Shown: in pieces, positions 5,427 to 34,956 of the stretch
Position numbering within the stretch: position 1 is the first letter of the stretch
Layout: every line of letters starts with the position of its first letter
Virus record (IMG/VR): IMGVR_UViG_3300005531_000018
Coordinates: 1 to 40,894 of that record
DNA: 40,894 bases
Reading direction: 5' to 3' (one strand)
Source of the DNA: a virus
Made by a program: the position numbers and the translations under genes
The notes under the pieces: generated by a model
The model's database searches: none
The model's input: only the letters and a program-made list of their open reading frames with translations
What the model was told of the DNA's origin: nothing

Positions 5427-5440
5427 TTTTGCGGGTGAAT
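5427..5440 (+). repeat. Skew-switch motif, copy 1 (TTTTGCGGGTGAAT)
   Basis: Exact copy in the short gap before the gene at 5442. Counted by eye, 5221-5280 has 6 G and 27 C, while 5461-5520 has 32 G and 7 C. The GGGTGA part could also serve as a ribosome site for the ATG at 5442, but that spacing does not recur at other copies. Confidence 0.85.
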
Positions 5441-5441
5441 T

Positions 5442-7418
5442 ATGGCGAAAAGGAAAAAGACGGGTAAGGGTGGGAAGAGGACGGGGCCGATTGGGAGCGC
5501 GGTGAGGTTTAGTCAGGGGTTGATGAGTGGGGCCGTGGAGGCGGGGGATCAGGCGTTGGGGAGAGTGGTAGGGTTTAATCCCTGGTTCGGATTTGGGAAG
5601 AAGATCGAGTACGGGAATTTTGTGAAGGCTCCCTTCAGGTCTGTTGACGGGGAAATTGAGCACATGTGGGTGAGGGTGAGTAAAGTTACGCCTACTGCTA
5701 TCGAAGGTGTGTTGGACAACGAGCCGGTGTTTAAGCACTCGCCTGCGCTGAAGATGGGTAGCGTGGTGAAGGTTAAAAAGTCGGCAGCGGAGAAGGTTAT
5801 GAACCCCGCCAAGTTCGACCGGTGTGTCAAAGAGGTGAAGGCGAAGGGGCGGCCGGGGAACGCGTACGCGATCTGTACGGCGGCGGGGACGAGGAACCCG
5901 AAAAAGAAAAAAGAGAAGTTCTATGAACCGGGTACGAGGATGCGGTTCGATGGGAATGATCCGGAGGCGGGGGCCTGGGGGTTCTTCGATGTTGAGGTGG
6001 TGGATTGGGAAGCCGTGAAGGACGGGTATGACAGTAATGGCCGTCGAGTATTGCCCAAAGCCACGGTGAGGAATCTAAGAACCGGTCGGGTGTTCACAAC
6101 GTACACGCACAACCTTAAACCTTTAGGGGCGGTGACCAATCCGGCCAAGAAGATGTACGCCATCGAATACAGTTACGAGAACACCCAGGGGACCAAGAAG
6201 TGGAGACTGTTGCCGGAGGGACCGTGGGAGAGCAAGGAAGACGCCCAGGACTTCGGTGATGCGGAAGTCGGGTATGCGTTCAGAGTGGTGAGCACGACCG
6301 CGAAAGAGTTTGAGAAAAAGCTAGTGGACCAGGGGACGAGGAGATCGAACCCGATTCATAAGATGGCGAGTTTTGACTCGAAGGCCGCGGCCGACGCGTT
6401 CGTGAGAGTGATGGAGGCGGATAGAGGGATCGCGATCAAGTACGTCGAGAAGAAGGGCGGGAAGTGGTGGGTGGAGTATGCGGAGTTGGGGAAAGCGTCG
6501 AACCCAGTGGAGCCCATCGCACTCGCTAACGAACTCGTAGGGAGATTGAAAAGTGGCGGGTACATCACTGATGACGGTGGACGGTTGTTGGAGATGGTAA
6601 TTCGACGTAGCGGACTGAGTTGGTCAGAATCGATTGGACTCGTGAAAGCCGCTAAGAAGACGGACGGAAAAGCGGACGCCAAAGCGATCTCTGACGCCTA
6701 CCAGAAAAAGTATGGATCGGAAAAGGCTCAAGAGCAATTACGCCATCGGCACGACGTCAGGTTGGAGCATCTACACGATTCCAGTTACGTGAAGCCAGAA
6801 AAGATTGACAGCATGATCGCGGCCCAGTTGGGGAAGAGGAAGTCAAACCCCTCTGACGCCGCCGCCGGGATGTACGAGTCCTTCCACGGGAAACCCTCCG
6901 ACCAGATCGAGGAGTTCGAGGAGAAGGACCATTACCACTCGAACCTCGCCGGGTTGGGGTGGATGATCGGGTTGAAGGTCAGGACCCCCTCCTGGTACGA
7001 CGTCACGATTGAGTTCGATGACGTTTTGTTATGCTCGAACGAGGACGGGACCCAGTTGTTTTTGGTCGGCGGGGATCAAAGCCTCGACCTCGACAAACTC
7101 AAGATCGATAACGAGACCGGGAAGGAGTCGGTCGTGATCGGGGAGGCGTGGTTGATTGGATACCACACCGAGAAGGACTTCGACGAGTTCAAACCTATCG
7201 ATTACATCCACGGGTTTGGGCATGAGAAGGACCATGCCAAACTCCCGAAGAATGCGGACTTGTGGAACGATGCGGAGCCGCCCAAAGAGGAGAGTTTCGG
7301 GGTGGGGAATTATCCGACGTTGAGGTACGACGTCAGGAATCAGAAGTTGTATCTGGATGGAGGGATTTACAAGATCGAGAAGCCGATGTTTGAGACGTCG
7401 CCGGGGATTGAAGGGTAG
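5442..7418 (+). CDS. Multidomain protein of NP-separated modules, DUF2314-like N-terminal domain
   Basis: A 658-aa protein that reads like a string of small domains. A basic N-terminus (about 1-30) precedes a DUF2314-like domain (about 60-110; EIEHMWVRVSKV, GVLDNEP, LKMGSVVKV). Then comes a short Cys motif (KFDRCVKEVKAKGRPGNAYA then ICTAAG), seen in many phage proteins. Several small modules are bounded by RNPKKK, TNPAKK, RSNPIHK, ASNPVEP and KSNPSDA. The last module (about 475-658; MYESFHGKPSDQ, LFLVGGDQSLDL, PTLRYDV, LYLDGGIYKI) resembles a domain I recall as common in environmental phages. No enzyme motif is evident. The NP sites could be hinges, cleavage sites or fusion scars. The gene is strongly G-rich at its start. 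Confidence 0.7.
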   Translation: MAKRKKTGKGGKRTGPIGSAVRFSQGLMSGAVEAGDQALGRVVGFNPWFGFGKKIEYGNFVKAPFRSVDGEIEHMWVRVSKVTPTAIEGVLDNEPVFKHSPALKMGSVVKVKKSAAEKVMNPAKFDRCVKEVKAKGRPGNAYAICTAAGTRNPKKKKEKFYEPGTRMRFDGNDPEAGAWGFFDVEVVDWEAVKDGYDSNGRRVLPKATVRNLRTGRVFTTYTHNLKPLGAVTNPAKKMYAIEYSYENTQGTKKWRLLPEGPWESKEDAQDFGDAEVGYAFRVVSTTAKEFEKKLVDQGTRRSNPIHKMASFDSKAAADAFVRVMEADRGIAIKYVEKKGGKWWVEYAELGKASNPVEPIALANELVGRLKSGGYITDDGGRLLEMVIRRSGLSWSESIGLVKAAKKTDGKADAKAISDAYQKKYGSEKAQEQLRHRHDVRLEHLHDSSYVKPEKIDSMIAAQLGKRKSNPSDAAAGMYESFHGKPSDQIEEFEEKDHYHSNLAGLGWMIGLKVRTPSWYDVTIEFDDVLLCSNEDGTQLFLVGGDQSLDLDKLKIDNETGKESVVIGEAWLIGYHTEKDFDEFKPIDYIHGFGHEKDHAKLPKNADLWNDAEPPKEESFGVGNYPTLRYDVRNQKLYLDGGIYKIEKPMFETSPGIEG

Positions 7419-7461
7419 GGGATGGCGGTGATGACGGCAAGATGAGTGAAAGGGCGAACAG

Positions 7462-8223
7462 ATGATTGACGAGATGGAAGTGACGACGACATTAACGGTT
7501 GAGGAACTCGCGGAGAACCTCGCCAAGGAGTTAACGGGATACGACAAGATCCCGTTGACGGATCACCAGACCCTCGCGTTGCGGGAAGAGGGGAAGGATT
7601 GGCCCGCCGATGCGTTGAGCATGATCGGGTTGAAGCGGATGCGGAACATTCACGACCTGACGAAGAGAATCGTGGTCGAGAAGGTCCCCGGAGACTTCAT
7701 GGAGTGCGGCGTGTGGCGGGGCGGGGCCTCGATTTTCATGTGGAGGCTTCTGGCGATGTATGGGGAGACGGATCGGAAGGTGATTCTGGCCGATTCGTTC
7801 GAGGGGTTCCCGAAAGATCGGGAATGCGTTCAGGACCGGTTGGAGTTCGCACCCGCGGAGTATATCGCGGTGAGTGAGGAGGAGGTCAGGACCAACTTCG
7901 CCAAGTACAAGGCGGGGGACCGGCTTCATCCCGATCCCAAGACGGTGTTTGTGCGGGGATGGTTCAAGGACACGCTCTTTACCGCGAACATCGGACGGTT
8001 GGCCCTTCTTCGTCTCGACGGCGATCTGTTCGAGTCGACGATGACGTGTTTGAATGCTCTCTATTCTCATGTCGTCGAGGGTGGTTACGTCATCATCGAC
8101 GATTACGCGTTACCGACGTGCCGGAGCGCGGTCGACCAGTTCAGGGAACGGTGGGGGATTAAGAACGAGATCCACCAGATCGATTATTCGGGGGTGTGGT
8201 GGCGGAAAGGGGGGCGGGCGTAA
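7462..8223 (+). CDS. TylF/MycF-family O-methyltransferase-like protein
   Basis: A 253-aa SAM-dependent methyltransferase of the TylF/MycF type, which methylate sugar hydroxyls in characterised members. Visible family signatures are GDFMECGVWRGGASIFM (about 77-93, SAM-binding region), VILADSFEGFP (107-117), LLRLDGDLFEST (about 183-193) and GGYVIIDDYALP (metal/catalytic region, about 207-217). It ends in WWRKGG as family members do. Length is normal. The ribosome-site leader is GAAAGGGCGAAC. Its stop overlaps the region of the next gene, a glycosyltransferase, so both probably modify glycans on the virion or host surface. Substrate unknown. Confidence 0.88.
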   Translation: MIDEMEVTTTLTVEELAENLAKELTGYDKIPLTDHQTLALREEGKDWPADALSMIGLKRMRNIHDLTKRIVVEKVPGDFMECGVWRGGASIFMWRLLAMYGETDRKVILADSFEGFPKDRECVQDRLEFAPAEYIAVSEEEVRTNFAKYKAGDRLHPDPKTVFVRGWFKDTLFTANIGRLALLRLDGDLFESTMTCLNALYSHVVEGGYVIIDDYALPTCRSAVDQFRERWGIKNEIHQIDYSGVWWRKGGRA

Positions 8224-8246
8224 TGGAGAAAGGAATTAATACGACG

Positions 8247-9674
8247 ATGACGATCAACCCGTCGATCCTCTTCTCGGTCATCCATCCTTCGGCCCGCCCG
8301 AACAAGTGGAGAGAGATTTACGACGCCTGGATCAACGCCGCGGTGTTCAAGGACATGGTCGAGTACATTCTCGTGGCCGATCCCAAGTTCTTCAGTGAGG
8401 ATCAGGCGAGAGAAGCGTTCGAGATCATGGCCAAGACCCGGCCCCAGGACCGCGTCATCTGGACCGGCGTGAAGGAGAACGCGACCTACGTCTCGAACGT
8501 CAACCTCGGGGCCAAGGAATCGCAAGGACGCCTTCTGTTCGTGATCGCCGACGATCAGTATCCGGCTCCGGAATGGGACGCGGAGATCGCGTCGATGTCG
8601 ACCGAGGGGATCAAGACCCCCGCGGACGAGTTCGTGGTCGAGGTCAATACGTTGACCCCCGATGAGCATGACCGCGGCATCCTCGTCCTCCCGATCCTTT
8701 CGCGGTCGAGGTATGAGCGGTTCGGGTATGTGTTCTTTCCCGAGTACGAGTCGATGTACGCGGACAATGATTTTTGTGCTCTCGCACGACGCGACGAGTG
8801 CGTGATCGATCTCCGCCATATCGCCCCGTTCCCGCATCGCCACCCGATGTTTGACCCCGAGGCGAAGATGGACGAGGCGTACAGTCTCCAGAATCGTCCC
8901 GAGGCTTACGAGAAGGGGGCGGCGATCTTTGAGGCGAGGAAGGCGTCGAACTTCAACGACGGCGTAAGGATTCATAAGCGCCGCCGTATCGCGGTGTGTC
9001 TGCCGGGGGAGAGATTTTCGATGTTGTGGGTGTCGGCCTGGACCGGCTTACTCGCACATCTTCTCCGCAATCATGAACCGGAGGTCCTGTTTGGATACTC
9101 TTCGTCGGTGTACGTGACCAGGGCATCCCTCGTCACCAACCTCATCCAGTCCAAACAGGACTTCGACTTCGTCCTTTGGTTGGACGACGACAACACCCTG
9201 ACGCCCGCGCAACTGGAGATGATGATCGCCGATCTCGACGACCACCCCGAACTCGCCGGAGTCGCCGGTTGGACGTGGGTGCAGACGGACGGTCACGCGT
9301 GCCTGGAGTCGACGGTCTCGTGTGGAACGTTGAACGAGATCGGCCAATCGCGGCCGTTCACGAAATCGGAGATGGAGTCGTGTACGTCTCCGCTCAAATG
9401 GATTGACTGGTCCGGATTCCCCGCCCTCCTTCTTCGGTTTGACACGTTGAAGGCCGACCCGTTCCCGTTCAGGGCCGAAGTCAACGACAACTACTCCTGG
9501 GGCATGGCCGGGGAGGACGTGAGTTTCTTTATCAAGATGCGGCGTCATGGTCTGAAGTTTGCCGTGGATCGTCGCGTGTATGTCCCGCATTACAAGATGC
9601 GGGCGGTGTCCGGGGATGAGATCCCCATCGCCGGATCGAACGTGATTCAAATGCCGGAGCCGCAACCGGCGTAA
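8247..9674 (+). CDS. Two-domain GT-A-type glycosyltransferase
   Basis: A 475-aa protein from the ATG at 8247, chosen because GGAGAAAGGA lies 12 nt upstream, the usual spacing in this window; an ATG at 8223 is an alternative. The N-terminal half (about 1-235) is GT2-like, with ILFSVIHPSARP and a nucleotide-sugar/metal motif region LLFVIADDQYPAPEWD. The C-terminal half carries a second GT-A unit with FDFVLWLDDDNTL (DxD-type) and AGEDVSFFIKMRRHG (acceptor-side ED motif). The tandem suggests a bifunctional enzyme adding two sugars. It follows the TylF-like methyltransferase directly, consistent with a small glycan-modification cassette. Confidence 0.75.
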   Translation: MTINPSILFSVIHPSARPNKWREIYDAWINAAVFKDMVEYILVADPKFFSEDQAREAFEIMAKTRPQDRVIWTGVKENATYVSNVNLGAKESQGRLLFVIADDQYPAPEWDAEIASMSTEGIKTPADEFVVEVNTLTPDEHDRGILVLPILSRSRYERFGYVFFPEYESMYADNDFCALARRDECVIDLRHIAPFPHRHPMFDPEAKMDEAYSLQNRPEAYEKGAAIFEARKASNFNDGVRIHKRRRIAVCLPGERFSMLWVSAWTGLLAHLLRNHEPEVLFGYSSSVYVTRASLVTNLIQSKQDFDFVLWLDDDNTLTPAQLEMMIADLDDHPELAGVAGWTWVQTDGHACLESTVSCGTLNEIGQSRPFTKSEMESCTSPLKWIDWSGFPALLLRFDTLKADPFPFRAEVNDNYSWGMAGEDVSFFIKMRRHGLKFAVDRRVYVPHYKMRAVSGDEIPIAGSNVIQMPEPQPA

Positions 9675-9688
9675 AAAGTTTGCAGTCA

Positions 9689-9713
9689 CCTCCGGATGCC
9701 GGGGGCAATTTTT
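9689..9713 (+). terminator. Intrinsic terminator after the glycosyltransferase gene
   Basis: A 7-bp GC-rich stem (CCTCCGG at 9689-9695 with CCGGGGG at 9699-9705, one T-G pair) with a 3-nt ATG loop is followed by CAA and five T residues at 9709-9713. It separates the sugar-modification genes from the capsid-candidate group. Confidence 0.65.
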
Positions 9714-9735
9714 GGAAGAAAGGAGAAGTAAACAG

Positions 9736-10068
9736 ATGAGTACAGTCACTTACGCATATCCGGTATCCGGGACGGTCGCTCCGGCCATCGCCCAGGCACT
9801 CGGATGCAACATGCTGACGTGTCAGATCCAGACGAGTGACGCGGACACCACCGCGACCATCACTCACAACTGGCAGTTGACGACGGCCCAACTCAACAAC
9901 TTGTGGCCGACGATCAAAGCCTATATCTCTTCGGCAGGAACCGCCTCGCCGTTGCTGAGTTGGGCTCTGACGAACTCGGTATCCGTCACGATGACCAAGG
10001 TGAGTTCGGTCGGGACCGGCGGAACCATCGTTCTGATTCTGGAACGTCCGTTCTCCGCGATCACGTAG
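9736..10068 (+). CDS. Small beta-rich protein, possible minor virion protein
   Basis: A 110-aa protein. The ATG at 9736 has GAAAGGAG about 9 nt upstream. The sequence alternates Thr/Val/Ile strands (VTYAYPVSGTV, DTTATITHNWQL, SVSVTMTKVS, TIVLILERPF) around one helix-like stretch (LNNLWPTIKAYI), as in a compact beta-sandwich. There is no signal peptide or membrane segment. It lies between the glycosylation genes and the Arg-rich and capsid-candidate genes, so a structural role is plausible but unproven. Confidence 0.6.
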   Translation: MSTVTYAYPVSGTVAPAIAQALGCNMLTCQIQTSDADTTATITHNWQLTTAQLNNLWPTIKAYISSAGTASPLLSWALTNSVSVTMTKVSSVGTGGTIVLILERPFSAIT

Positions 10069-10139
10069 GGCGGGATTGATTCGTACATGGGAGTCAGATT
10101 CCGAATGATCGCATTCGAGTTGAGAAAGGAGATCGAGTC

Positions 10140-11123
10140 GTGGCAGTAGCTACCAGAGTCGTACGCGTTGCCAACCCGCGGCGTAAGCGGTCATCCGGTC
10201 GCGGAAAATTCCGTCTCCGTACCGCCCGCCGCAAGTCCAACGCGGGTCGTTCTCGACGCCGAATGACGGAGAAGCAGATCCGCCACTTCGGCACTGCGGC
10301 CCAGAAGGCCGCATTGAAGCGCAAATATCGCGCCCGCTTCCAGAAGTCCGCGGGTGCAACGCGAAGGCGTCGGCGTAACTCGTCGTCCCACTCGCGCGTA
10401 AAGGTCGTCTATCGGTCTCGGTCGGCAAATCCCAAACGCCGCTCCCGTCGCCGTAGATCCAACCCGGCCCTCGTGGTGACACTTGGGTCCATCAATCCCA
10501 GAAGGAGAACCAAGTCAGTGGCAAAAACTCGCAAACGTCGTCGTTCGCGCAACCCGCGCCGTCACCGCGTTGCCCGCCGCCGACGCACCAATCGTCGGAC
10601 TCGGGTCGTGGTTGTCTCCGCTCCTCGCCGCCGTCGCCGTCACAATCCGGCCCGGTCGCATCGCCGCCGCCATCATCGGCGTCATCGTTCGATGAACCGG
10701 CGTCGGAACCCGTTCATGGGCGGCGGTAAGAACATGCTCATGGCGGGGGTCGGCATCTTGGCCGGTGTCACCGCCACCAAACTCATCCCCAAAGCCATCC
10801 CGGCTTCGATCTCCGCGTCGGTCGGGAGCGGGTCGATCATGGCCGTCGCCGTTTCGGGCGTTTCGGCGTGGTTGACCGGGTGGGTTCTGGGCAAGTTCGT
10901 CAACCCGACCCTGGGTGAATACGCCATGTATGGCGGCATCGCTCAGACGATCTCGGTGGCCCTCAATGCGTTCGTTCCCTCCATTGGCGGGACGTTCTCG
11001 TTGGGCGATCTGGTGAACGGCAATTTCGTCGTCCCCCAGAACCCGATCCGCGCAGGTATGTCGATGGTGGCCCCTTCGGCTCCGGCCGCGCGGGGCATGT
11101 CGGCCTACCCGTCCGCGTACTGA
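10140..11123 (+). CDS. Arg-rich DNA-binding domain fused to membrane domain, with FVVPQNP motif
   Basis: A 327-aa protein starting at GTG 10140, with GAAAGGAG upstream. Residues about 1-195 are protamine-like: dense Arg/Lys runs punctuated by NP (VANPRRKRS, SANPKRRS, RSRNPRRHR, RRHNPARSH). Residues about 198-300 hold two to three hydrophobic segments (MLMAGVGILAGVTATKLIP, IMAVAVSGVSAWLTGWVL, GGIAQTISVALNAFV). Then follows LGDLVNGNFVVPQNPIR, the signature also duplicated in the protein at 4574. I infer a protein that holds condensed DNA against a membrane inside the virion. A host-directed DNA-binding membrane protein is the alternative. Confidence 0.75.
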   Translation: MAVATRVVRVANPRRKRSSGRGKFRLRTARRKSNAGRSRRRMTEKQIRHFGTAAQKAALKRKYRARFQKSAGATRRRRRNSSSHSRVKVVYRSRSANPKRRSRRRRSNPALVVTLGSINPRRRTKSVAKTRKRRRSRNPRRHRVARRRRTNRRTRVVVVSAPRRRRRHNPARSHRRRHHRRHRSMNRRRNPFMGGGKNMLMAGVGILAGVTATKLIPKAIPASISASVGSGSIMAVAVSGVSAWLTGWVLGKFVNPTLGEYAMYGGIAQTISVALNAFVPSIGGTFSLGDLVNGNFVVPQNPIRAGMSMVAPSAPAARGMSAYPSAY

Positions 11124-11132
11124 GGTCGTAAA

Positions 11133-11150
11133 TGAGGCCGGTCGGCCTCA
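11133..11150 (+). terminator. Perfect 8-bp inverted repeat after the Arg-rich gene
   Basis: TGAGGCCG and CGGCCTCA flank a GT centre, 9 nt after the stop region of the gene at 10140. There is no T-tract, so it may be a mRNA 3'-end stabiliser or protein site rather than a terminator. The 11124-11282 gap otherwise holds two tiny reading frames (11132-11176 and 11173-11238, joined by ATGA) that I do not call as genes. Confidence 0.35.
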
Positions 11151-11282
11151 CGTTCGAGTCGTTCGCATCGTCATGAGGGCGGTATCGGAAGCGTTCACCG
11201 TGGCCGCCGCCGCCCTCTCGAAAGTCTCCACCCTTTAACCACTGTGTCGCGGGCCAAACCCGGACAAAGGAGAAAGATCATC

Positions 11283-11918
11283 ATGGCCGCTGCCGCTGCC
11301 GCAATGCCGTCCCTGACGCCTCAACAGGCATACATCCTCAACGAGTTCAACGGTCAGACCTACGAACCGAATCGAATGGACGTGCAGGACACTCCCCTGT
11401 ACGATACCGTCACGTTCACCGCGGGTCAGACCATCACGACCGCGACGTCCCAGTTGTTCGTCAACGTCCAGAACAAGAACATCGCCCAGACCAACGTCCA
11501 GACCTCCAAGAAGTTGGACGCGCCGGAAGCCTTCACCGTCAAGTCCTACCGGTTCTTCTGGCAACCGAATGTCCTCCTCGCCGACCTCTACACCATCCTC
11601 ATCGGCTCCGGCGGGGCGGTCCTGGAGTTCATCATCGGCAACAAGGTCTATCAGCGCGGGCCGCTCTGGGTGTACTCGCCCGGTGGCGGGCTCTACCCGT
11701 TCTTCACGACGTCGTCGACGTCGATGATTAACAACGGGATGCCCGGTCGCTCCGAGATGAACCGCTTGGCCATCAACGTCGTCATCGACAACCAAGCGTC
11801 GTTCTACGCCCAACTCAACTGCCCCTCTTCCATCGCCCTCACGGCGGCGGGTTCGGGCGGCACCGGCTTCCAGTACCAGTTGGTCCTCTCGGGCCTCTAC
11901 GCCCGCGGCGTCCAGTAA
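11283..11918 (+). CDS. Candidate major capsid protein (beta-rich, 211 aa)
   Basis: The ATG at 11283 follows AAAGGAG with good spacing and the codons are consistently C-ending, both suggesting high expression. After an Ala-rich N-terminus the protein is predicted beta-rich without membrane segments: DTVTFTAGQTITTATSQLFVNVQ, AFTVKSYRFFWQPN, VLEFIIGNKVYQRGPLWVYSPGGG, RLAINVVIDNQASFYAQL, FQYQLVLSGLYARG. Length and pattern fit a single jelly-roll capsid protein, and a very stable hairpin follows the gene. I recognise no named family, so capsid identity is inference from context and expression signals. A decoration or other abundant virion protein is the alternative. Confidence 0.55.
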   Translation: MAAAAAAMPSLTPQQAYILNEFNGQTYEPNRMDVQDTPLYDTVTFTAGQTITTATSQLFVNVQNKNIAQTNVQTSKKLDAPEAFTVKSYRFFWQPNVLLADLYTILIGSGGAVLEFIIGNKVYQRGPLWVYSPGGGLYPFFTTSSTSMINNGMPGRSEMNRLAINVVIDNQASFYAQLNCPSSIALTAAGSGGTGFQYQLVLSGLYARGVQ

Positions 11919-11933
11919 CAAAAACGGGGTCGT

Positions 11934-11957
11934 GGATGGGGTCTTCGGACTCCATCC
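11934..11957 (+). terminator. cUUCGg hairpin after the capsid candidate
   Basis: A 10-bp stem (GGATGGGGTC with GACTCCATCC, one G-T pair) closes a TTCG tetraloop through a C-G pair, the exceptionally stable cUUCGg fold. A pyrimidine-rich stretch follows rather than a clean T-tract. It could terminate transcription or protect the 3' end of the abundant upstream message. The rest of the 11919-12217 gap shows no convincing gene; it is C-rich up to the skew-switch motif at 12181. Confidence 0.65.
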
Positions 11958-12180
11958 CCTTCCCCTTCAGTCTCTTACGCGTCGGCGTCGGTGTGGGGTC
12001 CCCTTTCAATCCCCATTTCACCCGGCTCCTCACCTCTGTCACGCGCGAGAGTGGGCGTTCGGCTCTCATCCGGTACGCGGAGACGTTTGGCGGTGTTTAA
12101 GTTCGCCCTTTTCATCGCCTTACCTAGTTTCCATGCCCATCACCCGGCCGACCGGACCATCTGAACGCCCATCCAAAAAT

Positions 12181-12194
12181 TTTTGCGGGTGAAA
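12181..12194 (+). repeat. Skew-switch motif, copy 2 (13 of 14 bases)
   Basis: TTTTGCGGGTGAA followed by A instead of T, preceded by TCCAAAAAT, which resembles the TCCAAAT before the copy at 34943. The line 12121-12180 has 9 G and 24 C; 12421-12480 has 23 G and 7 C. It lies 24 bases before the ATG at 12218. Confidence 0.8.
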
Positions 12195-12217
12195 AGAATA
12201 GAGAGGAGAAAGAGGCG

Positions 12218-12643
12218 ATGGGAACGTTTAATCCGCAAGCCCCGCTAGTGATTAACGGCGTGAATGACGCCAGTCCGATGGGGTTTCAAGATCAGAGTTT
12301 TGACTACGTCTATGACGTGGTGTTGAGCGGGAATCAGGTGTTGAACGATCAGGTGGTAAGTATCTACACCGAGGCGGACTTTGCCTGGAGGGCGTTGATT
12401 GTGAACGTCGCGACCGGGACGTTTAAGGTGAGGTTTACGGACGGGCAGGGGTATTACTTGTCGAGTGGGTTGATTGACTCGGCTAACCTGACGTCGAGTC
12501 CCGCGGACCCCTGGATTGTGTTTCCCGAGGTGGTGTTTCCGGCCGGTGGGAGAATTAGCATCGATATTACGGACACGAGTGGAGCGACGAATACGATCCA
12601 ATTGTTGTTCAGGGGTGTGAACCGGTACCGGTTGCGGTCGTAG
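12218..12643 (+). CDS. Small beta-sandwich structural protein
   Basis: A 141-aa protein with GAGGAGAAAGAGG before the ATG. It is almost wholly beta-strand-like (FDYVYDVVLSGNQVLNDQVV, RALIVNVATGTFKVRFTDG, GRISIDITDTSGATNTIQLL) and ends in FRGVNRYRLRS. That ending closely resembles the ends of the two repeats in the next protein (FAGVRRRAG and FSGVRRYPC), so I infer one copy of the same beta-barrel module. It heads a G-rich gene series after the motif at 12181. Likely a virion component; family unknown. Confidence 0.6.
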   Translation: MGTFNPQAPLVINGVNDASPMGFQDQSFDYVYDVVLSGNQVLNDQVVSIYTEADFAWRALIVNVATGTFKVRFTDGQGYYLSSGLIDSANLTSSPADPWIVFPEVVFPAGGRISIDITDTSGATNTIQLLFRGVNRYRLRS

Positions 12644-12686
12644 GCGGACCGGCGAGAAGGAAGTTGATAAAAGGGCGAAAGGAGAG

Positions 12687-14176: not shown

Positions 14177-14180
14177 AGAC

Positions 14181-14816: not shown

Positions 14817-14831
14817 GGGCCGTTTGAGGCG

Positions 14832-23925: not shown

Positions 23926-24003
23926 AGAGGGGATCTTGACCGATTCCACGGCCGCGGAGAATAGAGCGCCAGTACCAGGACGGCCGAAACCACGGTTCTA
24001 GGG

Positions 24004-24098: not shown

Positions 24099-24172
24099 TT
24101 GGACGTGGTGTGGTAACGTTTACGACAATGATCCGGATCTTTACAGGGCCGGGTCACGAGAAGGGCGAACGA

Positions 24173-24559: not shown

Positions 24560-24562
24560 TCG

Positions 24563-26448: not shown

Positions 26449-26563
26449 AGGGACAAACACGCGATGCTTACGTCAGTAGGCACTACACCGACACAAAAAC
26501 CTTAGTCCTCACCATCATCTGTTTTTTAGACGAACTCAACCAGGACGGAAAAATATAAATAAA

Positions 26564-26902: not shown

Positions 26903-26912
26903 ATCGTCCCCG
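26893..26912. terminator. Bidirectional hairpin between convergent genes
   Basis: CGGGGAC and GTCCCCG form a 7-bp stem with a 6-nt loop containing the TGA of the GroES-like gene. The convergent minus-strand gene ends at 26916. No T-tract is present on the + side. It is placed as expected for a shared terminator. Confidence 0.45.
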
Positions 26913-26915
26913 CTA

Positions 26916-27284: not shown

Positions 27285-27323
27285 ATCGATTACGTTCTCC
27301 TTCCCCGTCTTCCCTGTCTTCTC

Positions 27324-28103: not shown

Positions 28104-28104
28104 C

Positions 28105-28539
28105 TTACTCCACCCCCGTCAAAATCTTCGAGATCGTCATCGCCCAATCCGCGGCAGTCGGCGGCGGCAAATACCTGTACGCCACCTGCCCCACCCTCAA
28201 CCACAAATCCCCCTCCGCTTCCGGCGGATAATACGCCGCTTGCCTCTCGATCACCTTCAACTCCGCGACCATCACCGTCAGATTCGTCGCATACTCCGGC
28301 GGCATCGGATTCGGCACCGCGGCCAAAACCGCCTCGATCACCGTCGCAATGTTCCTCATCTCTTCTTTTTCCTTTCCGTTGAATTTTGCGGGTGAATCAC
28401 CCGCGGTTAAGAATAGTTTCGATGCCGGGTAGGGATTGTTACAGCCTTGATCGACACCATGGACTTCACCGGCCTGGACGTTGGCCCCACAACCGCAAAC
28501 CCAGGGTTGATAGAGAGTGTAGGAGAGGGCTTGGATCAT
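28105..28539 (-). CDS. Hypothetical protein containing the skew-switch motif
   Basis: A 144-aa reading from ATG 28539, which overlaps the upstream stop (ATGA), supporting this start. The first 47 residues have a small Cys-bearing unit (PWVCGCGANVQAGEVHGVDQ, then GCNNPYPASKLFL). Residues 48-53 (D-S-P-A-K-F) are the reverse strand of the motif at 28384. The rest (VIEAVLAAVPNPMPPEYATN, MVAELKVIERQAAYYPPEAE) is helical. An internal ATG at 28359 has GGAAAGGA upstream, so the helical part could be a separate 84-aa gene. Unknown family. Confidence 0.5.
   Translation of the reverse strand: MIQALSYTLYQPWVCGCGANVQAGEVHGVDQGCNNPYPASKLFLTAGDSPAKFNGKEKEEMRNIATVIEAVLAAVPNPMPPEYATNLTVMVAELKVIERQAAYYPPEAEGDLWLRVGQVAYRYLPPPTAADWAMTISKILTGVE
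28384..28397 (+). repeat. Skew-switch motif, copy 4, inside a minus-strand gene
   Basis: Exact copy on the + strand, although the genes here run on the minus strand. Line 28201-28260 has 9 G and 26 C; 28621-28680 has 21 G and 8 C. Uniquely, it extends into a palindrome: GCGGGTG (28388-28394), AAT, CACCCGC (28398-28404). Confidence 0.85.
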
Positions 28540-29636
28540 CGGGCCGGTCCTCCGTTGATGGAGTAGAGGTTGGGGTCGTCCTCGTTCCGGCTAATCATGT
28601 AACGGCGGATGTCGTCGCGGAGAGCGGGTTTGTTACCGGTTAAGTGGTAGATTCCCTGGTAGTTAGCGATGAGGTCGTAAGTGGGGGAGTATTGGTTTCG
28701 TACCAGGATCAGGTCACGGGACGAATACGCCCGCCGATTCTTGCTCCCGTGGAAGAAGTGGGTGGCGAAGCCGTCGACGTAGCCGATGTTCTTTTTGAGG
28801 CGGGCGGCGTTCTGTTGCCACGCGTGGATGTATTGGCGATAATCGGCGCTATAGCCGTCGATGTGCATGTCTGGGGCTTCTTCGCCGACCAAGCCGAAGG
28901 TCATGAACCAATCGCCGTGACCCAGGATACACTTATCAAGGAGCCCGCCACATGTCTCGTATCCTTCGCGGGTGAAGGCCCAGGCCCCGCCGGTTGCACC
29001 GACGCCGGGAAGTCCGCCGACTCCCATGGCCATCGCGTAATGATAGTCGTCATCGACTGGGATGTCACGACGCCGCCAACCGCCATTTTCGTACCCATCC
29101 GGAAGCCGGAATCCGTTCTGGATGTAGTTGAAGGCAAACCCGTTGTTGGTACCGATGACGCGGTGTCCGGTAGAGTAGGTTTCGCCGGAAAGGTCGGCGT
29201 ATTGGGAGAACATCTGGACCCAGGCGTAATGTTGAAGCTGGTGGATGGTTTCGAGGGCGACGTCGTGACGGGTGAAATGAAAGTCCATGTCGATGGCCGC
29301 CCCGTGTTTCCAACCTGGAGGGAAGCGTTCGATGACGAGGCGTTGGACGTGTTCTTTGAGGAAGAGTTCGGAGTCGCCGCGGAATTGGAAGTCCCGAGGG
29401 TTGACGGTGGGGTCGGTTACCTCGAATGGCCGGTCCCCAAACGCCATCTCTCCGACGTAGAGCCGGACGTTCGGCATCTTCTCCATGTGACGGCGGAAGT
29501 CGTTGGCGAGTTCGCGCCGGGTACGCCATCGCCACGGGTTGGTGTAGCAACAAGCGACGTGGAGGATCTCGGACTCGCTCCATTCGGCAAAAGGTTGATG
29601 TACGTCTGGGTGTTGACGGTGGTGTTCTACAGGCAC
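28536..29636 (-). CDS. Glycosyltransferase-like protein
   Basis: A 366-aa protein. I start it at GTG 29636, preceded by GAAAGGGCGAAC, the leader also seen before 7462 and, in similar form, 24173; the open frame extends further but only as a shadow of the lipoprotein gene. Features: ILHVACCYTNPWRWRTRREL, VRLYVGEMAFGDRPFEVTDP, a KE-containing segment (SELFLKEHVQRLVIERFPPG), DMDFHFTRHDVALETIHQLQ in place of the DxD-bearing strand, VVQMFS-like AWVQMFSQYADL, and GGAWAFTREGYETCGGL, LGHGDWFM toward the acceptor side. This matches a glycosyltransferase-like family known in phages. It heads the minus-strand operon. Confidence 0.65.
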   Translation of the reverse strand: MPVEHHRQHPDVHQPFAEWSESEILHVACCYTNPWRWRTRRELANDFRRHMEKMPNVRLYVGEMAFGDRPFEVTDPTVNPRDFQFRGDSELFLKEHVQRLVIERFPPGWKHGAAIDMDFHFTRHDVALETIHQLQHYAWVQMFSQYADLSGETYSTGHRVIGTNNGFAFNYIQNGFRLPDGYENGGWRRRDIPVDDDYHYAMAMGVGGLPGVGATGGAWAFTREGYETCGGLLDKCILGHGDWFMTFGLVGEEAPDMHIDGYSADYRQYIHAWQQNAARLKKNIGYVDGFATHFFHGSKNRRAYSSRDLILVRNQYSPTYDLIANYQGIYHLTGNKPALRDDIRRYMISRNEDDPNLYSINGGPAR

Positions 29637-29790
29637 TTCGTTCGCCCTTTCTCTGACTTGGTGAGGGTTGCTGACGGTCACGCCGTCCGGTCGATCAATC
29701 CTACTATGGGCGGGATCGCGGGGGCAAATAAATTTGAGTTCCAGATCCGGCCCCTGTAATCTGACGGAGGGAACAAAGGAACCCATTTTC

Positions 29791-30288
29791 ATGAAAACGA
29801 CAAACTTTATGGCAGTCGTAGTACTGGTCGCGTCGTCCCTGGTGACATCGTCGTGTGGCGGGTCGAAGCTGGTGGTTTTGCTCGATGCGGTGGCGGTCGC
29901 GTCGGCGGCGGCTCCGGCGGCCGTCATTGCGCTCGAAGCCTCAGGAACGGTATCGGCCGCGGACGTCAACACCGTGATCGCGTTGTCCAAGACCGTGTCG
30001 GCCGACACCTCCCAGGCGATCACCGACGCCGAATCCGGCAAACCCTCCGCCCAGATCGCCCAGGCCGTCGTGAACGATTACGCAAACGTCCCGTCCTCGA
30101 TCCCTGGACTCTCGCCCGCGGCCTTGGCCATCGCCCAGGGTGTGATCTCCGCGGCGGAGGCGGTGTTGACCGAGGTCGCCAACGGGTCTTTCTCCTCGCA
30201 CCCGCTCAAGATCGATGCCGCGACGAAGGACAAGTTGGAGACGATCCGAAAGAAGTGTCAGACGACACAGTACATCCCGTCCAGATAA
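29791..30288 (+). CDS. Probable lipoprotein
   Basis: A 165-aa protein with CAAAGGA 10 nt before the ATG. The N-terminus has the shape of a lipoprotein signal (MKTTNFMAVVVLVASSLVTS then SCGGS); the residues before the Cys (T-S-S) are a weak lipobox match. The mature part is helical and rich in Ala/Val/Ser (VVVLLDAVAVASAAAPAAVI-like, VNTVIALSKTVSADTSQAIT, AALAIAQGVISAAEAVL) and ends with a charged stretch (KIDAATKDKLETIRKK). Small phage lipoproteins may act as spanin subunits or in superinfection exclusion; neither can be shown here. It is divergent from the glycosyltransferase operon. Confidence 0.6.
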   Translation: MKTTNFMAVVVLVASSLVTSSCGGSKLVVLLDAVAVASAAAPAAVIALEASGTVSAADVNTVIALSKTVSADTSQAITDAESGKPSAQIAQAVVNDYANVPSSIPGLSPAALAIAQGVISAAEAVLTEVANGSFSSHPLKIDAATKDKLETIRKKCQTTQYIPSR

Positions 30289-30293
30289 AAATC

Positions 30294-30323
30294 GGGGCGG
30301 CCCCCCGGAAAGAAGACCGCCCC
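30294..30323 (+). terminator. GC-rich hairpin after the lipoprotein gene
   Basis: GGGGCGG (30294-30300) pairs with CCGCCCC (30317-30323) across a 16-nt loop, starting 6 nt after the stop. There is no T-tract, but position and stability suit a transcript end between the lipoprotein gene and the convergent repressor gene. Confidence 0.5.
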
Positions 30324-30379
30324 ATGCTTCCATCTGGCAACTTCCAACACGTTCACGGACACCGAAAAATCAAACAGGA

Positions 30380-30595
30380 TTACGCGACAATCCTCTCGTG
30401 GAGTTCATCGAGCGTAATCCCCATAGCCTTGGCGATGCGACCGGCGACGGGGAAGGACGGCATTCTCTTCTTCGCCAAAATCAGACTGACATGGCTCCGG
30501 TCGACTTGGGCCTCTCTGGCGACTTGGCTGATATTTTCAACCTCCACCGGGGCCACCGCGGCCTTCTTTTTCTTCGTCGTCTTCGTCGCGTTCAT
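30380..30595 (-). CDS. Cro/CI-type helix-turn-helix regulator
   Basis: A 71-aa protein. After a Lys/Ala-rich N-terminus, residues about 20-66 form an XRE-type HTH: ISQVAREAQVDRSHVSLILA is the helix-turn-helix, then KKRMPSFPVAGRIAKAMGIT and LDELHERI complete the five-helix fold. It has no dimerisation or peptidase domain, so it is Cro-like in size. It is transcribed away from the early/replication genes starting at 30833, the classic position for a phage switch regulator. Operator candidates lie at 30603-30673 and 30727-30739. Confidence 0.75.
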   Translation of the reverse strand: MNATKTTKKKKAAVAPVEVENISQVAREAQVDRSHVSLILAKKRMPSFPVAGRIAKAMGITLDELHERIVA

Positions 30596-30602
30596 AAAAT
30601 TC

Positions 30603-30673
30603 CGGAAGCCCCTTAGGTCCGCTGGAGTTCGCTAATCATTCGAGTTTGGTCTCCTATCTCGTCGGGGGCTTCC
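30603..30673. promoter_or_regulatory. 9-bp inverted repeat upstream of the repressor gene
   Basis: GGAAGCCCC (30603-30611) and GGGGCTTCC (30665-30673) are exact reverse complements 53 nt apart, within the 237-nt region between the repressor and the early genes. They could be two operator half-sites for looping or a long-loop hairpin. The interval has no convincing gene. Confidence 0.4.
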
Positions 30674-30726
30674 TCTGAGGGTGATTATCGTGATTCCGCT
30701 CCCCGAAGTCAAATAAATCTCAATTC

Positions 30727-30739
30727 ACCGCCTTGCGGT
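30727..30739. promoter_or_regulatory. Palindromic operator candidate
   Basis: ACCGC-CTT-GCGGT is a perfect 5-bp-arm palindrome with a 3-nt centre, between the Cro-like gene and the early promoter at 30791. Size and symmetry suit binding by a dimer of a small HTH protein. Only one copy was found by eye. Confidence 0.4.
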
Positions 30740-30790
30740 CGAATAGATCGAGACCCCTATATTTTGTTTCCAGAATTTCTCGGATTTTTG

Positions 30791-30820
30791 TTGACACTCA
30801 GCAACACCACCCAGTATTAT
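30791..30820 (+). promoter_or_regulatory. Sigma70-type early promoter
   Basis: TTGACA at 30791-30796 and TATTAT at 30815-30820 are separated by 18 nt, close to consensus. The surrounding DNA is the most AT-rich in the window. The start codon at 30833 would lie only a few bases after the expected transcription start, giving a nearly leaderless message if that start is correct. Confidence 0.75.
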
Positions 30821-30832
30821 CGTTTTCACCGT

Positions 30833-31276
30833 ATGGAAAATGAAACCGTGACTCCGGCGGCCCCGAAGTCGAGAATGATCGCGTCCTTGCACATGGAGAC
30901 GACGGTCCAGAAAGCCCTTCGCACCGAACCTGACATGGCCGCTTACGCGAACGCTCACACGCGCCTGAGTGACGTCCGCACCATCCGGCTCCTCCATGTC
31001 GCCATGGGTCTCGTCACCGAGGCCGGTGAGTTCCTCGATCAGTTGAAGAAGCATATCTTCTACGGCCGCCCCCTCGACACCGTCAACCTCATCGAGGAAC
31101 TCGGGGACTCCAACTGGTACGAACGTATCGGCGTCGACGCCCTCGAAACCACCTTCCTCGACATGGTCCACCGCAACGTCGCCAAACTCCAAGCCCGGTT
31201 CCCCGAAAAATTCACCGAGGACGCCGCCAACAATCGCGACCTCGCCCAAGAACGTCAAATCCTGGAAGGAAAATAA
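30833..31276 (+). CDS. MazG-like nucleoside triphosphate pyrophosphohydrolase
   Basis: A 147-aa all-helical NTP-pyrophosphohydrolase-like protein. The metal-binding signature is visible: LVTEAGEFLDQLKKHIFYG (Glu63, Glu66) and VNLIEELGDSNWYERI (Glu88/89, Asp92). Such enzymes hydrolyse NTPs to NMP and PPi and in phages are thought to adjust nucleotide or ppGpp pools. It is the first gene after the sigma70 promoter. No ribosome site precedes ATG 30833; internal ATGs at residues 15 and 21 are alternatives. It starts a run of early genes ending in ThyX, another nucleotide-metabolism enzyme. Confidence 0.8.
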   Translation: MENETVTPAAPKSRMIASLHMETTVQKALRTEPDMAAYANAHTRLSDVRTIRLLHVAMGLVTEAGEFLDQLKKHIFYGRPLDTVNLIEELGDSNWYERIGVDALETTFLDMVHRNVAKLQARFPEKFTEDAANNRDLAQERQILEGK

Positions 31277-31282
31277 CCTACT

Positions 31283-31621
31283 GTGCAGCAACTTCAACTC
31301 ACCAAAGAACAGATTCCCCAGTTCCTCGAAGACCGACGCCGCGAACTTGCCGCGGTCGACGACGTCATCGCGATCAAACAATCCTGTATCGCGCATCTCG
31401 ACGAGATGGACCGCGCCTTAGAAAACCCCCCTCAAAAGGGCGTCGAGATGGCCCTCCGTCAATTCTCCTCGATCCAGCGCATCGAGTACACGCTCCAACT
31501 CCGCTCCCTCGAAGAGAAGCGTATCCAACTCTCCGCTCTCATCAAACAGATCGAGTCCCAGGCCGGTCGCCGCATCGAGGTCCCCTCCGGTCCGATTCCG
31601 TTCAAGGCTCCGCGGGTCTAA
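31283..31621 (+). CDS. Coiled-coil hypothetical protein
   Basis: A 112-aa protein starting at GTG 31283 with GGAAGGA about 12 nt upstream. It is nearly all helix with heptad-like spacing (IPQFLEDRRRELAAVDDVIA, FSSIQRIEYTLQLRSLEEKR, IQLSALIKQIESQAG) and ends in a short Pro-rich tail (VPSGPIPFKAPRV). No enzyme motif. A scaffold or regulator of early complexes is possible. Confidence 0.6.
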   Translation: MQQLQLTKEQIPQFLEDRRRELAAVDDVIAIKQSCIAHLDEMDRALENPPQKGVEMALRQFSSIQRIEYTLQLRSLEEKRIQLSALIKQIESQAGRRIEVPSGPIPFKAPRV

Positions 31622-31669
31622 CCGTCCCGCCACCATCGCCATCTTCATCCAGACCATTACGCCCTAGTT

Positions 31670-32263
31670 ATGTCTATGTCCGACCCATCCCGCCGCTCCC
31701 GTCGCCGCACCGCGACCGACGAAGCCTCCGTTGTCGTTCCGTTTGAAGATGCCGACCCCTCAGCCGGTGAACTTCCCCTCAAGGAGCTTGACGAGTTCGT
31801 TGTACCCGGCAGTGACGATAAAGGCCGCAAGGTTACCGTGACCTTCAACATCCACCCAGCGATGGATCGCCAACTGGACGTCATCCTCTCCTCCCGCCGC
31901 TTCCCTTACGCCAACAAAAAAGAACTCGTCCGCCACGCCCTCGCCCGTCATTGCGTCTGGTTATTGTCGATCCGCCAAACCGTCCCCACCCACTACATGG
32001 CGATGTTTGAGGCCGGGATCGAACTTATCAAGGAAGACGAGACCGCGGCGAGGATGGAGCGGGTCTTCATGAGTTTGGAAGACCGTGTGAACGATCACGT
32101 CATGAAGGGTGAGCAAGGCGAGGCCCTCCGCCTTATCAGCCAAATCCACCAACAGTTATTGAAGTTGAAGCCGTCGTTGTGGATGAGGCGGTTTGCAGAG
32201 CGGTTCCTCGGTCAATATGGCCGGTGGCTCAAGAGTACGGGACGGGTTGAGACAGAGGACTGA
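31670..32263 (+). CDS. Ribbon-helix-helix-like DNA-binding protein
   Basis: A 197-aa protein. A basic Ser/Arg N-terminus and acidic linker precede a ribbon-helix-helix-like unit at about 54-95: the strand RKVTVTFNIHPAMDRQL, then helices LDVILSSRRFPYANKKELVR and HALARHCVWLL. The C-terminal 100 residues are helical and charged (ELIKEDETAARMERVFMSLE, ALRLISQIHQQLLKLKPSLW). RHH proteins bind DNA as dimers, often as regulators. It immediately precedes the helicase gene, so a role in replication initiation or regulation is inferred. Confidence 0.6.
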   Translation: MSMSDPSRRSRRRTATDEASVVVPFEDADPSAGELPLKELDEFVVPGSDDKGRKVTVTFNIHPAMDRQLDVILSSRRFPYANKKELVRHALARHCVWLLSIRQTVPTHYMAMFEAGIELIKEDETAARMERVFMSLEDRVNDHVMKGEQGEALRLISQIHQQLLKLKPSLWMRRFAERFLGQYGRWLKSTGRVETED

Positions 32264-32272
32264 ACCATCGTC

Positions 32273-33970
32273 ATGATCTCCGGTCTCTCCCCTCTCGACA
32301 TCGGCCTCCCCGCCAAGTTCTCCTCTTGGCGGCCCAACCAAATCCTCGCCCTCTCGCGCGAGTTCCCCGTCATCACCCCGGACCCCTCGAATCCGACCTC
32401 CATCATCCCCTCCTACTTCCAATCCCACTCCATGCCGGTCGGAGACGGCAAGTCCGTCTTCTACATCGCCAAGGCCCTCCTCACCGCTCAACGCGCCTGT
32501 ATCCTCACCTCGACCAAGGGCCTCCAAAACCAACTCATGGGCGACTTCTCCCCCATCGGTCTTTGCGACATCCGGGGCCGCAACAACTACGTCTGTATCG
32601 ACAAAGAATGCCGCAATTGCGAAGAAGGCCAACACCATCGTTGTCCCCCTCTCGAATGCGACTACGAACGCCACCGCGAGAAGATGCTCCAATCGCCCCT
32701 GGTCACGACCAACTACTCCTACTTCACCCGGTCCCATCGTTATGGCCGCGGGATGGGGTCGTTCGATCTCCTCATCCTCGACGAGGCCCACGATGCCCCT
32801 GACGAAGTCTGTGCGGCCATGGCCATCGAGGTCGGCTACTGGGAAGCCTCCAAGATCGGCATCAACCTCCCGCGCGAAGGCGATCTCGATCAATGGCACG
32901 ATTGGGCCACCGAGGCCCTCCCCATCGTCTCGCGCAACGTCGAGGACCTCAAACTCTCGATGGAATCCGAAAAGGAAGAACGAGGCCGCCCTCACATCTC
33001 GACCATCAAGGAATACCGCTTCTGGTCCGCGGTCCTGACCAAAGTCAATTCCATCCTCGAAGCCTCCGGCGAGTGGGCCATCGAACGTATCGGCAACGGC
33101 TACCGCCTGGAGCCCATCTGGGCCTCCGACTACGCCGACGCCATCCTATTCCGCAACATCCCCCACATCATCCTGGTCTCCGCGACCATGGTCCAAAAGA
33201 CCATCGATCTCTTAGGCATCCCCGAGGACCGCAATCAATTCTTCGAGTACCCGTCCTCGTTCCCACCCCAGAACTCCCCCATTTACAACTACTGCCCTCT
33301 CGGGATCTCCGGACGCCCCCTCCAACTCAACCACCGCTCCACCAACGACGACCTCGTCATCTGGACGTCGTTCATGGACAACATCATCCGCCGCCGCCTG
33401 GACCGTAAGGGCATCATCCACTCGGTCTCCTACGACCGTTCCCGCTTCATTCGCGACAACTCCGAGTTCGGCCGCCACATGATCGTCCCCGAGAAGGGCT
33501 CCGAGACCGCCGCCGCCATCCGCCGCTTCGTTCTCGCTCCCCCCGGCACCATCCTCGTCTCCCCCTCCATCACCACCGGCCTGGACTTCAAATACTCCCT
33601 CTGCGAGTACAACATCATCGCCAAAGTCCCGTTCCTCGACACCCGCGGGGCGGTCCTCTCCGCCCGCCAAGCCTCCGACGACGAATACGCCCCCTACGTC
33701 ACCGCCCAAACCATCGTCCAGGCCGCGGGCCGCTCCACACGTGCCGCCGACGACCGCTCCGAGGTCTTCATCCTCGACGCCAACTTTTCCTGGTTCTTCC
33801 GCAAATACAAACACCTCTTCCCGTTCTGGTTTAGCCGCCTTCTCCAGAAGCCGACCTCAATGCCAGAACCACCGGCCCCTCTCAACCGGGTCCCGGACTT
33901 ATCCACCCTCAGCCTGGAGGCCGACGACACAACACTCACCTCCATCTCAAACCTTCCGAAAGGACTTTAG
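32273..33970 (+). CDS. DinG/XPD-type superfamily 2 helicase with Fe-S cluster motif
   Basis: A 565-aa helicase. Visible motifs: a Q-like SSWRPNQ (17-23), Walker A PVGDGKS (55-61), a Cys cluster after GRNNYVC (Cys108, 113, 116, 124, 129) with the usual TTNYSYF downstream, motif II LLILDEAHD (167-174), motif III-like VSATMV, and motif VI QAAGRSTRAADD. The Cys spacing fits a 4Fe-4S domain as in XPD and DinG, which unwind DNA 5' to 3'. Length is shorter than bacterial DinG (~700 aa). It sits between the RHH and the DNA-metabolism gene, so it is the likely replicative or repair helicase of the element. Confidence 0.88.
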   Translation: MISGLSPLDIGLPAKFSSWRPNQILALSREFPVITPDPSNPTSIIPSYFQSHSMPVGDGKSVFYIAKALLTAQRACILTSTKGLQNQLMGDFSPIGLCDIRGRNNYVCIDKECRNCEEGQHHRCPPLECDYERHREKMLQSPLVTTNYSYFTRSHRYGRGMGSFDLLILDEAHDAPDEVCAAMAIEVGYWEASKIGINLPREGDLDQWHDWATEALPIVSRNVEDLKLSMESEKEERGRPHISTIKEYRFWSAVLTKVNSILEASGEWAIERIGNGYRLEPIWASDYADAILFRNIPHIILVSATMVQKTIDLLGIPEDRNQFFEYPSSFPPQNSPIYNYCPLGISGRPLQLNHRSTNDDLVIWTSFMDNIIRRRLDRKGIIHSVSYDRSRFIRDNSEFGRHMIVPEKGSETAAAIRRFVLAPPGTILVSPSITTGLDFKYSLCEYNIIAKVPFLDTRGAVLSARQASDDEYAPYVTAQTIVQAAGRSTRAADDRSEVFILDANFSWFFRKYKHLFPFWFSRLLQKPTSMPEPPAPLNRVPDLSTLSLEADDTTLTSISNLPKGL

Positions 33971-33976
33971 ATCACC

Positions 33977-34864
33977 ATGCCAACAGACGTGTCCAACACC
34001 TCTGCCGTTCCGGGAGCCATCAACCGCATCTCCAACTCCCTCGATGACATGCACGCTCCCGGAATTGGCCCCGACCAATCCGACTGCCGCGTCAAAGTCA
34101 TCTCCTACGTCTCCTTCGACTACGCGGGCAAGTACAAGGACGACCCGTTCATCGCCGTCAAAGCCACTTGCGAACCTCTCGACGGCTCCAACGAAGGCAA
34201 GGACTTCGACATCGAATGGACGACCGGCGCGAAGGCGTCCGATTACGCCATTGTCGACGACGGCGGATACCTCACCCCGACCGGTGCCAAATCCTCCCTC
34301 ACCAACACCTCCAACTGGGCGTTGTTGCAGCGTTCCCTGAAGGACGCCTCCTTCAATCTCGCCCTCCTCAACGGCGACCGCGGCATCCGCGCCCTCGAAG
34401 GGATCGAGTGGACCGTCCGCCGCATCCCGCAACCCAAGCGTGACGGAATCGCCAATCAGGACCCCTCCGCCCGCGAACAGAAGTACTACACCTGCCTCAA
34501 AATCATCGCCCTCCCCGGCGAAAAGAAGCCCGCCGCGGCCCGCCGCGCCCCGGCCAAACCGGCCGCCGCCCCTGCCGCTCCGGCTCCCACCTCTGCCCCC
34601 GCCCCTGCCGCCGCGGCCTCCAACGCCACGGGTGACGCCCAGATCGCCCAGTTCGTCATCTCCGCCCTCGCCGCTTCCGGCGGCACCCTCGCCCTCGCCG
34701 ACGTGGCCAAAGCCGTCTTCCAACAGGCCAAGGCCGCCGGTCTCTCCGCCCGCGATTCTTCGGAATCCGGCAAGAAGGCCGCCACCGAGGACTTCCTCAT
34801 CGAGCAAGGCATGGAGACCTCCGCCTGGGTGTTCGATAACGGCGTCGTGACCGCGACCGCCTAG
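33977..34864 (+). CDS. Putative DNA-metabolism protein with Pro/Ala linker
   Basis: A 295-aa protein 6 nt after the helicase gene. Residues about 1-175 look like a beta-rich domain (CRVKVISYVSFDYAGKYKDD, VKATCEPLDGSNEGKDFDIE, IRALEGIEWTVRRIP, YYTCLKIIALPG), as in single-stranded-DNA-binding or DUF669-type recombination partners. A Pro/Ala linker follows (about 182-216), then a C-terminal helical domain (QIAQFVISALAASGGTLALA, AVFQQAKAAGLSARDSS, FLIEQGMETSAWVFDNGVV) of winged-helix appearance. I infer an accessory protein for the helicase or the Sak4-like ATPase. No firm family. Confidence 0.6.
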   Translation: MPTDVSNTSAVPGAINRISNSLDDMHAPGIGPDQSDCRVKVISYVSFDYAGKYKDDPFIAVKATCEPLDGSNEGKDFDIEWTTGAKASDYAIVDDGGYLTPTGAKSSLTNTSNWALLQRSLKDASFNLALLNGDRGIRALEGIEWTVRRIPQPKRDGIANQDPSAREQKYYTCLKIIALPGEKKPAAARRAPAKPAAAPAAPAPTSAPAPAAAASNATGDAQIAQFVISALAASGGTLALADVAKAVFQQAKAAGLSARDSSESGKKAATEDFLIEQGMETSAWVFDNGVVTATA

Positions 34865-34887
34865 TCCACCCTTTCCTTTCCTCCTCA

Positions 34888-34946
34888 GGAGAGGAGGCGG
34901 AGAAGATCATTACCATCTAACGATCTCCCCTCCTCTCCAAATTTTT
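34888..34946 (+). terminator. Long-stem intrinsic terminator
   Basis: GGAGAGGA (34888-34895) pairs with TCCTCTCC (34931-34938), and AGATC near 34903 pairs with GATCT near 34922, giving an extended imperfect stem. AAATTTTT follows, ending in T-tract 34942-34946. The T-tract is the start of copy 5 of the skew-switch motif. It ends the helicase transcript. Confidence 0.7.
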
Positions 34947-34956
34947 GCGGGTGAAT
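34943..34956 (+). repeat. Skew-switch motif, copy 5
   Basis: Exact copy directly after a terminator stem. Line 34501-34560 has 15 G and 30 C; 35041-35100 has 28 G and 11 C. The preceding bases TCCAAAT match those before copy 2 (TCCAAAAAT). Confidence 0.85.

Follow-up and report, generated by a model that had tools for sequence, protein, structure and literature searches.

What resets the strand composition of this viral DNA, and why does it happen at a short repeated word? We addressed this question over the whole stretch analyzed (40,894 nt, termed here the window, W), in which a sequence-only reading had reported five copies of the motif TTTTGCGGGTGAA(T/A), each at an abrupt change from C-rich to G-rich. 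The five copies are present as claimed and all lie on the + strand: four are exact (at 5427, 18887, 28384, and 34943) and one, at 12181, matches at 13/14 positions. With up to two mismatches allowed, we found 6 matches against 0.26 expected from shuffled sequences. The copies occupy dissimilar genetic contexts. The first (TTTTGCGGGTGAAT, 5427 to 5440) is immediately 5' of the gene at 5442 to 7418, the second (TTTTGCGGGTGAAA, 12181 to 12194) is intergenic, with the gene at 12218 beginning 37 nt on, the third (18887 to 18900) falls within the signal-peptide codons (..GFAGES..) of the gene at 18843 to 19901, the fourth (28384 to 28397) is flanked by two minus-strand genes, and the fifth (34943 to 34956) is intergenic, after the gene at 33977 to 34864. 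The sixth match, TTTAGCGGGTGGAT at 15357, is not accompanied by an upward jump of the skew. We use it as a negative control within the window, along with two further near-misses that lack a jump, TTCGGCCGGTGAA (24196, minus strand) and CTTCGCGGGTGAAG (28964).

We then analyzed the GC skew itself. Whether minima of the cumulative skew coincide with the motif had been proposed as a check, and they do: the minima at 12179 to 12186, 18884, 28377, and 34942 to 34948 lie ~7 nt or less from a copy, and the first, at 5275 to 5357, is ~70 nt upstream of its motif. These five are the only minima of the window with a prominence above 100, the next reaching 81, so that the motif copies mark the five strongest cumulative minima of the window. 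From each copy to the next (5441 to 12180, 12195 to 18886, 18901 to 28383, and 28398 to 34942, the last including minus-strand genes), the skew drifted from G-rich back to C-rich, as had also been noted; by tenths of the interval, the fall was nearly linear, from +0.31 to -0.27, with no sharp downward jump between the upward ones. A sawtooth model, set to +1 immediately after a site and falling linearly to -1 immediately before the following one, was cross-correlated with the skew at every offset. The best of the 40,894 possible offsets was -9 nt, and the fit was 1908, compared to a maximum of 1483 in 2000 random site sets. A sharp C-to-G switch devoid of motif was also observed at 39067, inside the ERCC4-nuclease gene; it is among the largest over 300 nt, and its cumulative prominence (67) is far below that of the motif sites. 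Since this jump has no motif, we consider that the motif accounts for the large-scale minima and not for every local swing.

The skew arose mainly at third codon positions and was strongest at synonymous sites. On the + strand, fourfold-degenerate sites were 67% C and 20% G over the 750 nt left of the motif and 15% C and 69% G over the 750 nt to its right, and this bias decayed over ~3 kb on either side. The flip was the same on the + strand whichever strand was coding, and at 28384 it was identical although both neighboring genes are on the minus strand. Coding direction as the cause is ruled out by this site and by the bias at synonymous positions. Across the motif, C at fourfold sites fell from.67 to.15, T only went from.08 to.09, and A was flat also, whereas T at two-fold pyrimidine sites increased from.14 to.55. 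The fourfold swap of C for G, together with the two-fold rise of T, indicates that the rightward strand avoids C, no matter which synonym takes its place. Simple cytosine deamination (C to T) does not fit, because T and A stay flat at fourfold sites while C and G swap, and the gradient of single-strand exposure that the sequence-only reading had offered as one cause fails in that form. A C-to-G exchange via abasic sites is possible, a route that we raise alongside a uracil-DNA-glycosylase domain encoded by the relative described below; selection on strand composition is another possible source of the exchange.

A relative, R (IMGVR_UViG_3300050821_004627, 61,475 bp, used as its reverse complement), was located through a conserved 210-aa protein of the window (11286 to 11918, + strand). 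This is the most conserved protein common to both genomes (77% identity); it has no family match, and its AlphaFold model has a mean pLDDT of 30. R and the window have collinear genes with about 30 to 77% protein identity. The ends of R overlap by 97 bp, and a second contig (27.6 kb) from another metagenome is 100% identical to R and spans the join, from which we conclude that R is circular, with a length of ~61.4 kb. By comparison, the window is short of roughly 20 kb; the corresponding segment of R carries genes for PolA, a UvrD-type helicase, a protein with a uracil-DNA-glycosylase domain, and topoisomerase VI A-like and ParB/Noc-like proteins. No DNA similar to the first 20 kb of the window was found in the phage collection, and searches for a host or provirus and for plasmid relatives found none.

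The window 14-mer is absent from R, and a search of IMG/VR for the exact 14-mer returned single scattered matches only, as expected since the motif diverges between relatives. The most repeated 13-mer of R, TTCGGCAGGAGAA, shares 9/13 positions with the window motif (common form, TTNNGCNGGNGAA) and occurs in 11 exact copies, or 19 at up to one mismatch, on both strands, with 0 in shuffled sequences. The best sawtooth offset in R was -26 nt of 61,378, with a fit beyond those of 2000 random site sets. The sawtooth of the relative is thus accompanied by a motif that is conserved, though diverged, which was the other check proposed. We also ranked all repeated k-mers (thousands) by how far the skew jumps where they occur, with no preselection of the motif, and the motif came first in each genome, with a z of 7.2 in the window and 6.0 in R; shifted controls reached at most 4.9 and 3.5, respectively. 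In four control phages (JG054, RDJL2, Pam3, and LWP01), whose only link is a topoisomerase-like gene, no k-mer exceeded 3.8. Two distant relatives with the helicase and the nuclease in common, G003 and G004, had neither motif nor sawtooth and no k-mer above 3.6, so that the system is limited to the lineage of the window and R, as far as sampled. A chance motif is ruled out by the shuffles, the unbiased k-mer ranking, and the random-site sawtooth fits. The motif-anchored sawtooth is real and is strengthened by an independent genome, the coupling being documented in two independent genomes only. As a separate observation, G004 (IMGVR_UViG_3300046782_000297, a 67-kb phage contig) carries ~41 copies of the palindrome GTAAAGTTTAC, which have no skew effect and look like a repressor operator or stoperator array.

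Jumps in R were upward on both motif strands (83 at minus copies versus 64 at plus copies) and larger at exact than at one-mismatch copies (69 versus 45); the copy at R2951 showed a weak jump only (23). That orientation is irrelevant was also evident between the genomes, since the plus copy at 5427 is syntenic with a minus copy at R36018, an inverted motif before the orthologous gene with the same upward jump. At 12181, the window has motif and jump, and the corresponding spacer of R has neither; R has both one gene downstream. Conversely, R8195 has motif and jump and the orthologous place in the window, 38785, neither. The copies at 18887 and R47317 lie at the same signal-peptide codons (..GFAGES.. 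versus ..GSAGEA..), and 34943 is syntenic with R4317. At orthologous places, the presence or absence of the motif thus tracks that of the jump. The motif changed together at all sites while several sites stayed put, as expected of a binding site that co-evolves with its reader. Within a conserved stretch of the helicase, YSLCEY of the window (33599) corresponds to FSAGEY at the motif copy R2951, where the DNA motif seems to override the protein sequence.

We propose that each motif is a dispersed, origin-like site at which replication forks diverge, and we give this reading a probability of about 60%. The 13- to 14-bp motif would launch forks both ways, directly or after the DNA is nicked or broken there, and would be read by a virus-encoded protein, for which the ParB/Noc-like protein and basic proteins are candidates. 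Forks from neighboring sites would meet at variable places, so that both the mean direction of the forks and the strand bias that depends on it would fall linearly between sites and be reset abruptly at each of them; on the strand read rightward from a site, C would be avoided and G favored. The abrupt C-to-G switch, visible at synonymous positions, is the kind of skew jump by which replication origins are recognized. Taking the skew as a report of fork direction, we infer divergence of the forks at the motif and not their convergence, although the sign of the skew at origins is not universal, the opposite direction having been discussed for Candida albicans (PMC3459929). The many origin or primer sites put forward by the sequence-only reading are thus partly supported: with minima at the motif and a relative that agrees, many origin-like or priming sites are the best-supported reading, while the simple exposure-gradient variant does not fit. 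In the present, incomplete annotation, neither an initiator nor a primase was recognized at or near the motif sites, nor was an AT-rich unwinding element. A fuller picture, of a lineage of circular ~60-kb viruses with roughly 8 to 20 equivalent motif-defined bidirectional sites every few kilobases, a co-evolving virus reader, and an unusual C-to-G-type strand-asymmetric substitution, has in our view an even chance of being right.

Several other explanations were weighed against diverging forks. Short strand-specific consensus sequences repeated along the genome mark the single-strand interruptions of T5 and phiKMV, and the motif could be such an interruption, with strand displacement or gaps exposing one strand. 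That it is short and asymmetric, with all five window copies on one strand, and that genes for a UvrD-type helicase and an ERCC4-type nuclease are present would suit this view, but one-way displacement predicts a one-sided effect, and the flip is symmetric about the sites whichever strand bears the motif. Moreover, we know of no skew effect of T5-like nick sites, and the T5 and phiKMV interruptions are not known to set strand composition, whereas both motif strands act alike here; we consider this explanation unlikely. Somewhat less likely still is a fork barrier or terminator, at which forks begun at scattered places would converge under an inverted skew convention. A switch that is sharp at the motif, with gradual change between, would be compatible with it, and the sign of the skew alone leaves fork direction unfixed (PMC3459929), but barriers are usually polar and here orientation is irrelevant, with no Ter-like polarity, and divergence is what would be expected from the G-rich leading strand that is usual in bacteria and most phages. 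The bias could also be selected, a G-rich polarity away from the motif guiding, in a KOPS-like manner, a machine for DNA translocation, packaging, or segregation that is loaded there and is perhaps the ParB/Noc-like protein whose gene is present in R. The pure swap of C and G at fourfold sites with A/T unchanged speaks for this, but we found no single polar, KOPS-like k-mer that stands out as the carrier of the bias, which follows base composition broadly. Furthermore, parS and Noc sites are palindromic; the motif is dispersed like them and R encodes a ParB/Noc-like protein, but the motif is not a palindrome. We regard selection of this kind as improbable.

A promoter, operator, or stoperator, with skew produced by transcription-coupled mutation, might be suspected because several copies are just 5' of genes and the R motif includes AGGAG-like Shine-Dalgarno letters. 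However, copies also lie inside genes (18887, R2951, and R12315), the pair formed by 5427 (+) and R36018 (-) shows opposite orientations at one syntenic place, and the skew flips at 28384 with both neighboring genes on the minus strand, so that neither the orientation to genes nor an intergenic position is fixed. Sigma-70-like promoters are not in excess from 4500 to 19500, and the C-rich left side is beyond what sense transcription can make. The stoperators of mycobacteriophage L5 are asymmetric 13-bp repeats dispersed through the genome, but they follow the direction of transcription and bind a repressor, whereas the copies studied here also occur within genes, face either way, and mark the skew. 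A transcriptional origin of the pattern is very unlikely. Abrupt switches could in principle also be junctions, where an assembly or mosaic artifact joined unrelated segments at a common word. Gene order is collinear with R over every junction, one of which is within a conserved gene, and R is circular and identical from two metagenomes, which leaves a negligible probability for this explanation; chimeric assembly is ruled out by the collinearity.

Dispersed bidirectional initiation has known counterparts elsewhere. Human N-domains are without a consensus motif, and the ACS of yeast is A/T-rich and read by ORC. In phage T4, initiation takes place at several places in one genome, as we propose here; T4 origins are not known to have a common short consensus or to mark a skew sawtooth, both of which are found in the window and R. 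Human N-domains ("factory roof") show an upward skew jump at predicted origins; from one origin to its neighbor the skew declines linearly and never drops sharply (PMC3320577, PMC3459929), which is the shape seen here. N-domains are megabase-scale, whereas the viral intervals are 3 to 10 kb, are bounded by copies of a 13-bp motif, and show a far larger bias. Yeast ACS elements are short oriented consensus sequences at which a symmetric skew change is centered irrespective of their orientation (PMC3459929). The viral motif behaves likewise, as an oriented short consensus at jumps that occur regardless of its orientation, but it is GC-containing, its reader is putative, and its sites are far denser than yeast ACS origins. 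In huge-phage genomes, skew patterns have been described from which replication was deduced to be bidirectional or unidirectional (PMC7162821). The statement that no described system has this pattern must therefore be narrowed: the pattern is known from human N-domains and yeast ACS (PMC3320577, PMC3459929), and what appears to be new is to find it in a virus genome, at a scale of kilobases and defined by a motif. Our search of open-access papers brought up no phage in which a motif marks a skew sawtooth, which is weak evidence of absence. Many defined copying sites are thus familiar from yeast and human chromosomes, and we did not find them described for such a virus.

If our reading is correct, a very small genome would be a eukaryote-like replicon with many origins, and, among the prokaryotic and viral replicons known to us, would hold the clearest link between motif and skew. 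The rule of "one phage, one or few origins" would then not be general, and the lineage would be a compact natural model, with the spacing of origins, the meeting of forks, and strand-specific mutation all readable from sequence and open to testing. Such systems could be sought by ranking k-mers on the size of the skew change where they occur.

We then looked into the gene content. On the + strand, the window encodes a DinG-like DNA helicase (32273 to 33970; phrog_2488, 1e-57), a Sak4-like/AAA_24 recombinase ATPase (36350 to 37162; family match), and an ERCC4 (XPF-type) nuclease homologue (38452 to 39279), assigned through a family match of its R orthologue, to which it is 60% identical. Upstream of the helicase is a conserved basic protein (31670 to 32263, +; 47% identity to R; no family match) that, as judged by eye only, is possibly a DNA-binding protein. 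No terminase, portal, or tail genes were recognized among the proteins scanned in the window and R; 22734 to 23363 has weak matches to lysin/tail families. The virion type is possibly an undescribed one, and the virus probably infects bacteria. No Rfam structured RNA matched the window, and it contains no tRNAs. Three consecutive proteins (14181 to 14816, 14832 to 16562, and 16526 to 18460) have a common C-terminal domain (..VIWRL..Y.RDLGNI.VTMGS..) and may be paralogous receptor- or fibre-like proteins. Many small proteins of both genomes have a C-terminal membrane segment, and both viruses have several small membrane-type proteins in which a peptide, GDL..G.FVVPQNP or a variant of it, recurs (window, 4574 to 5041 and 10140 to 11123; R, 34950 to 35459 and 31616 to 32290); the peptide is perhaps a processing or docking signal.
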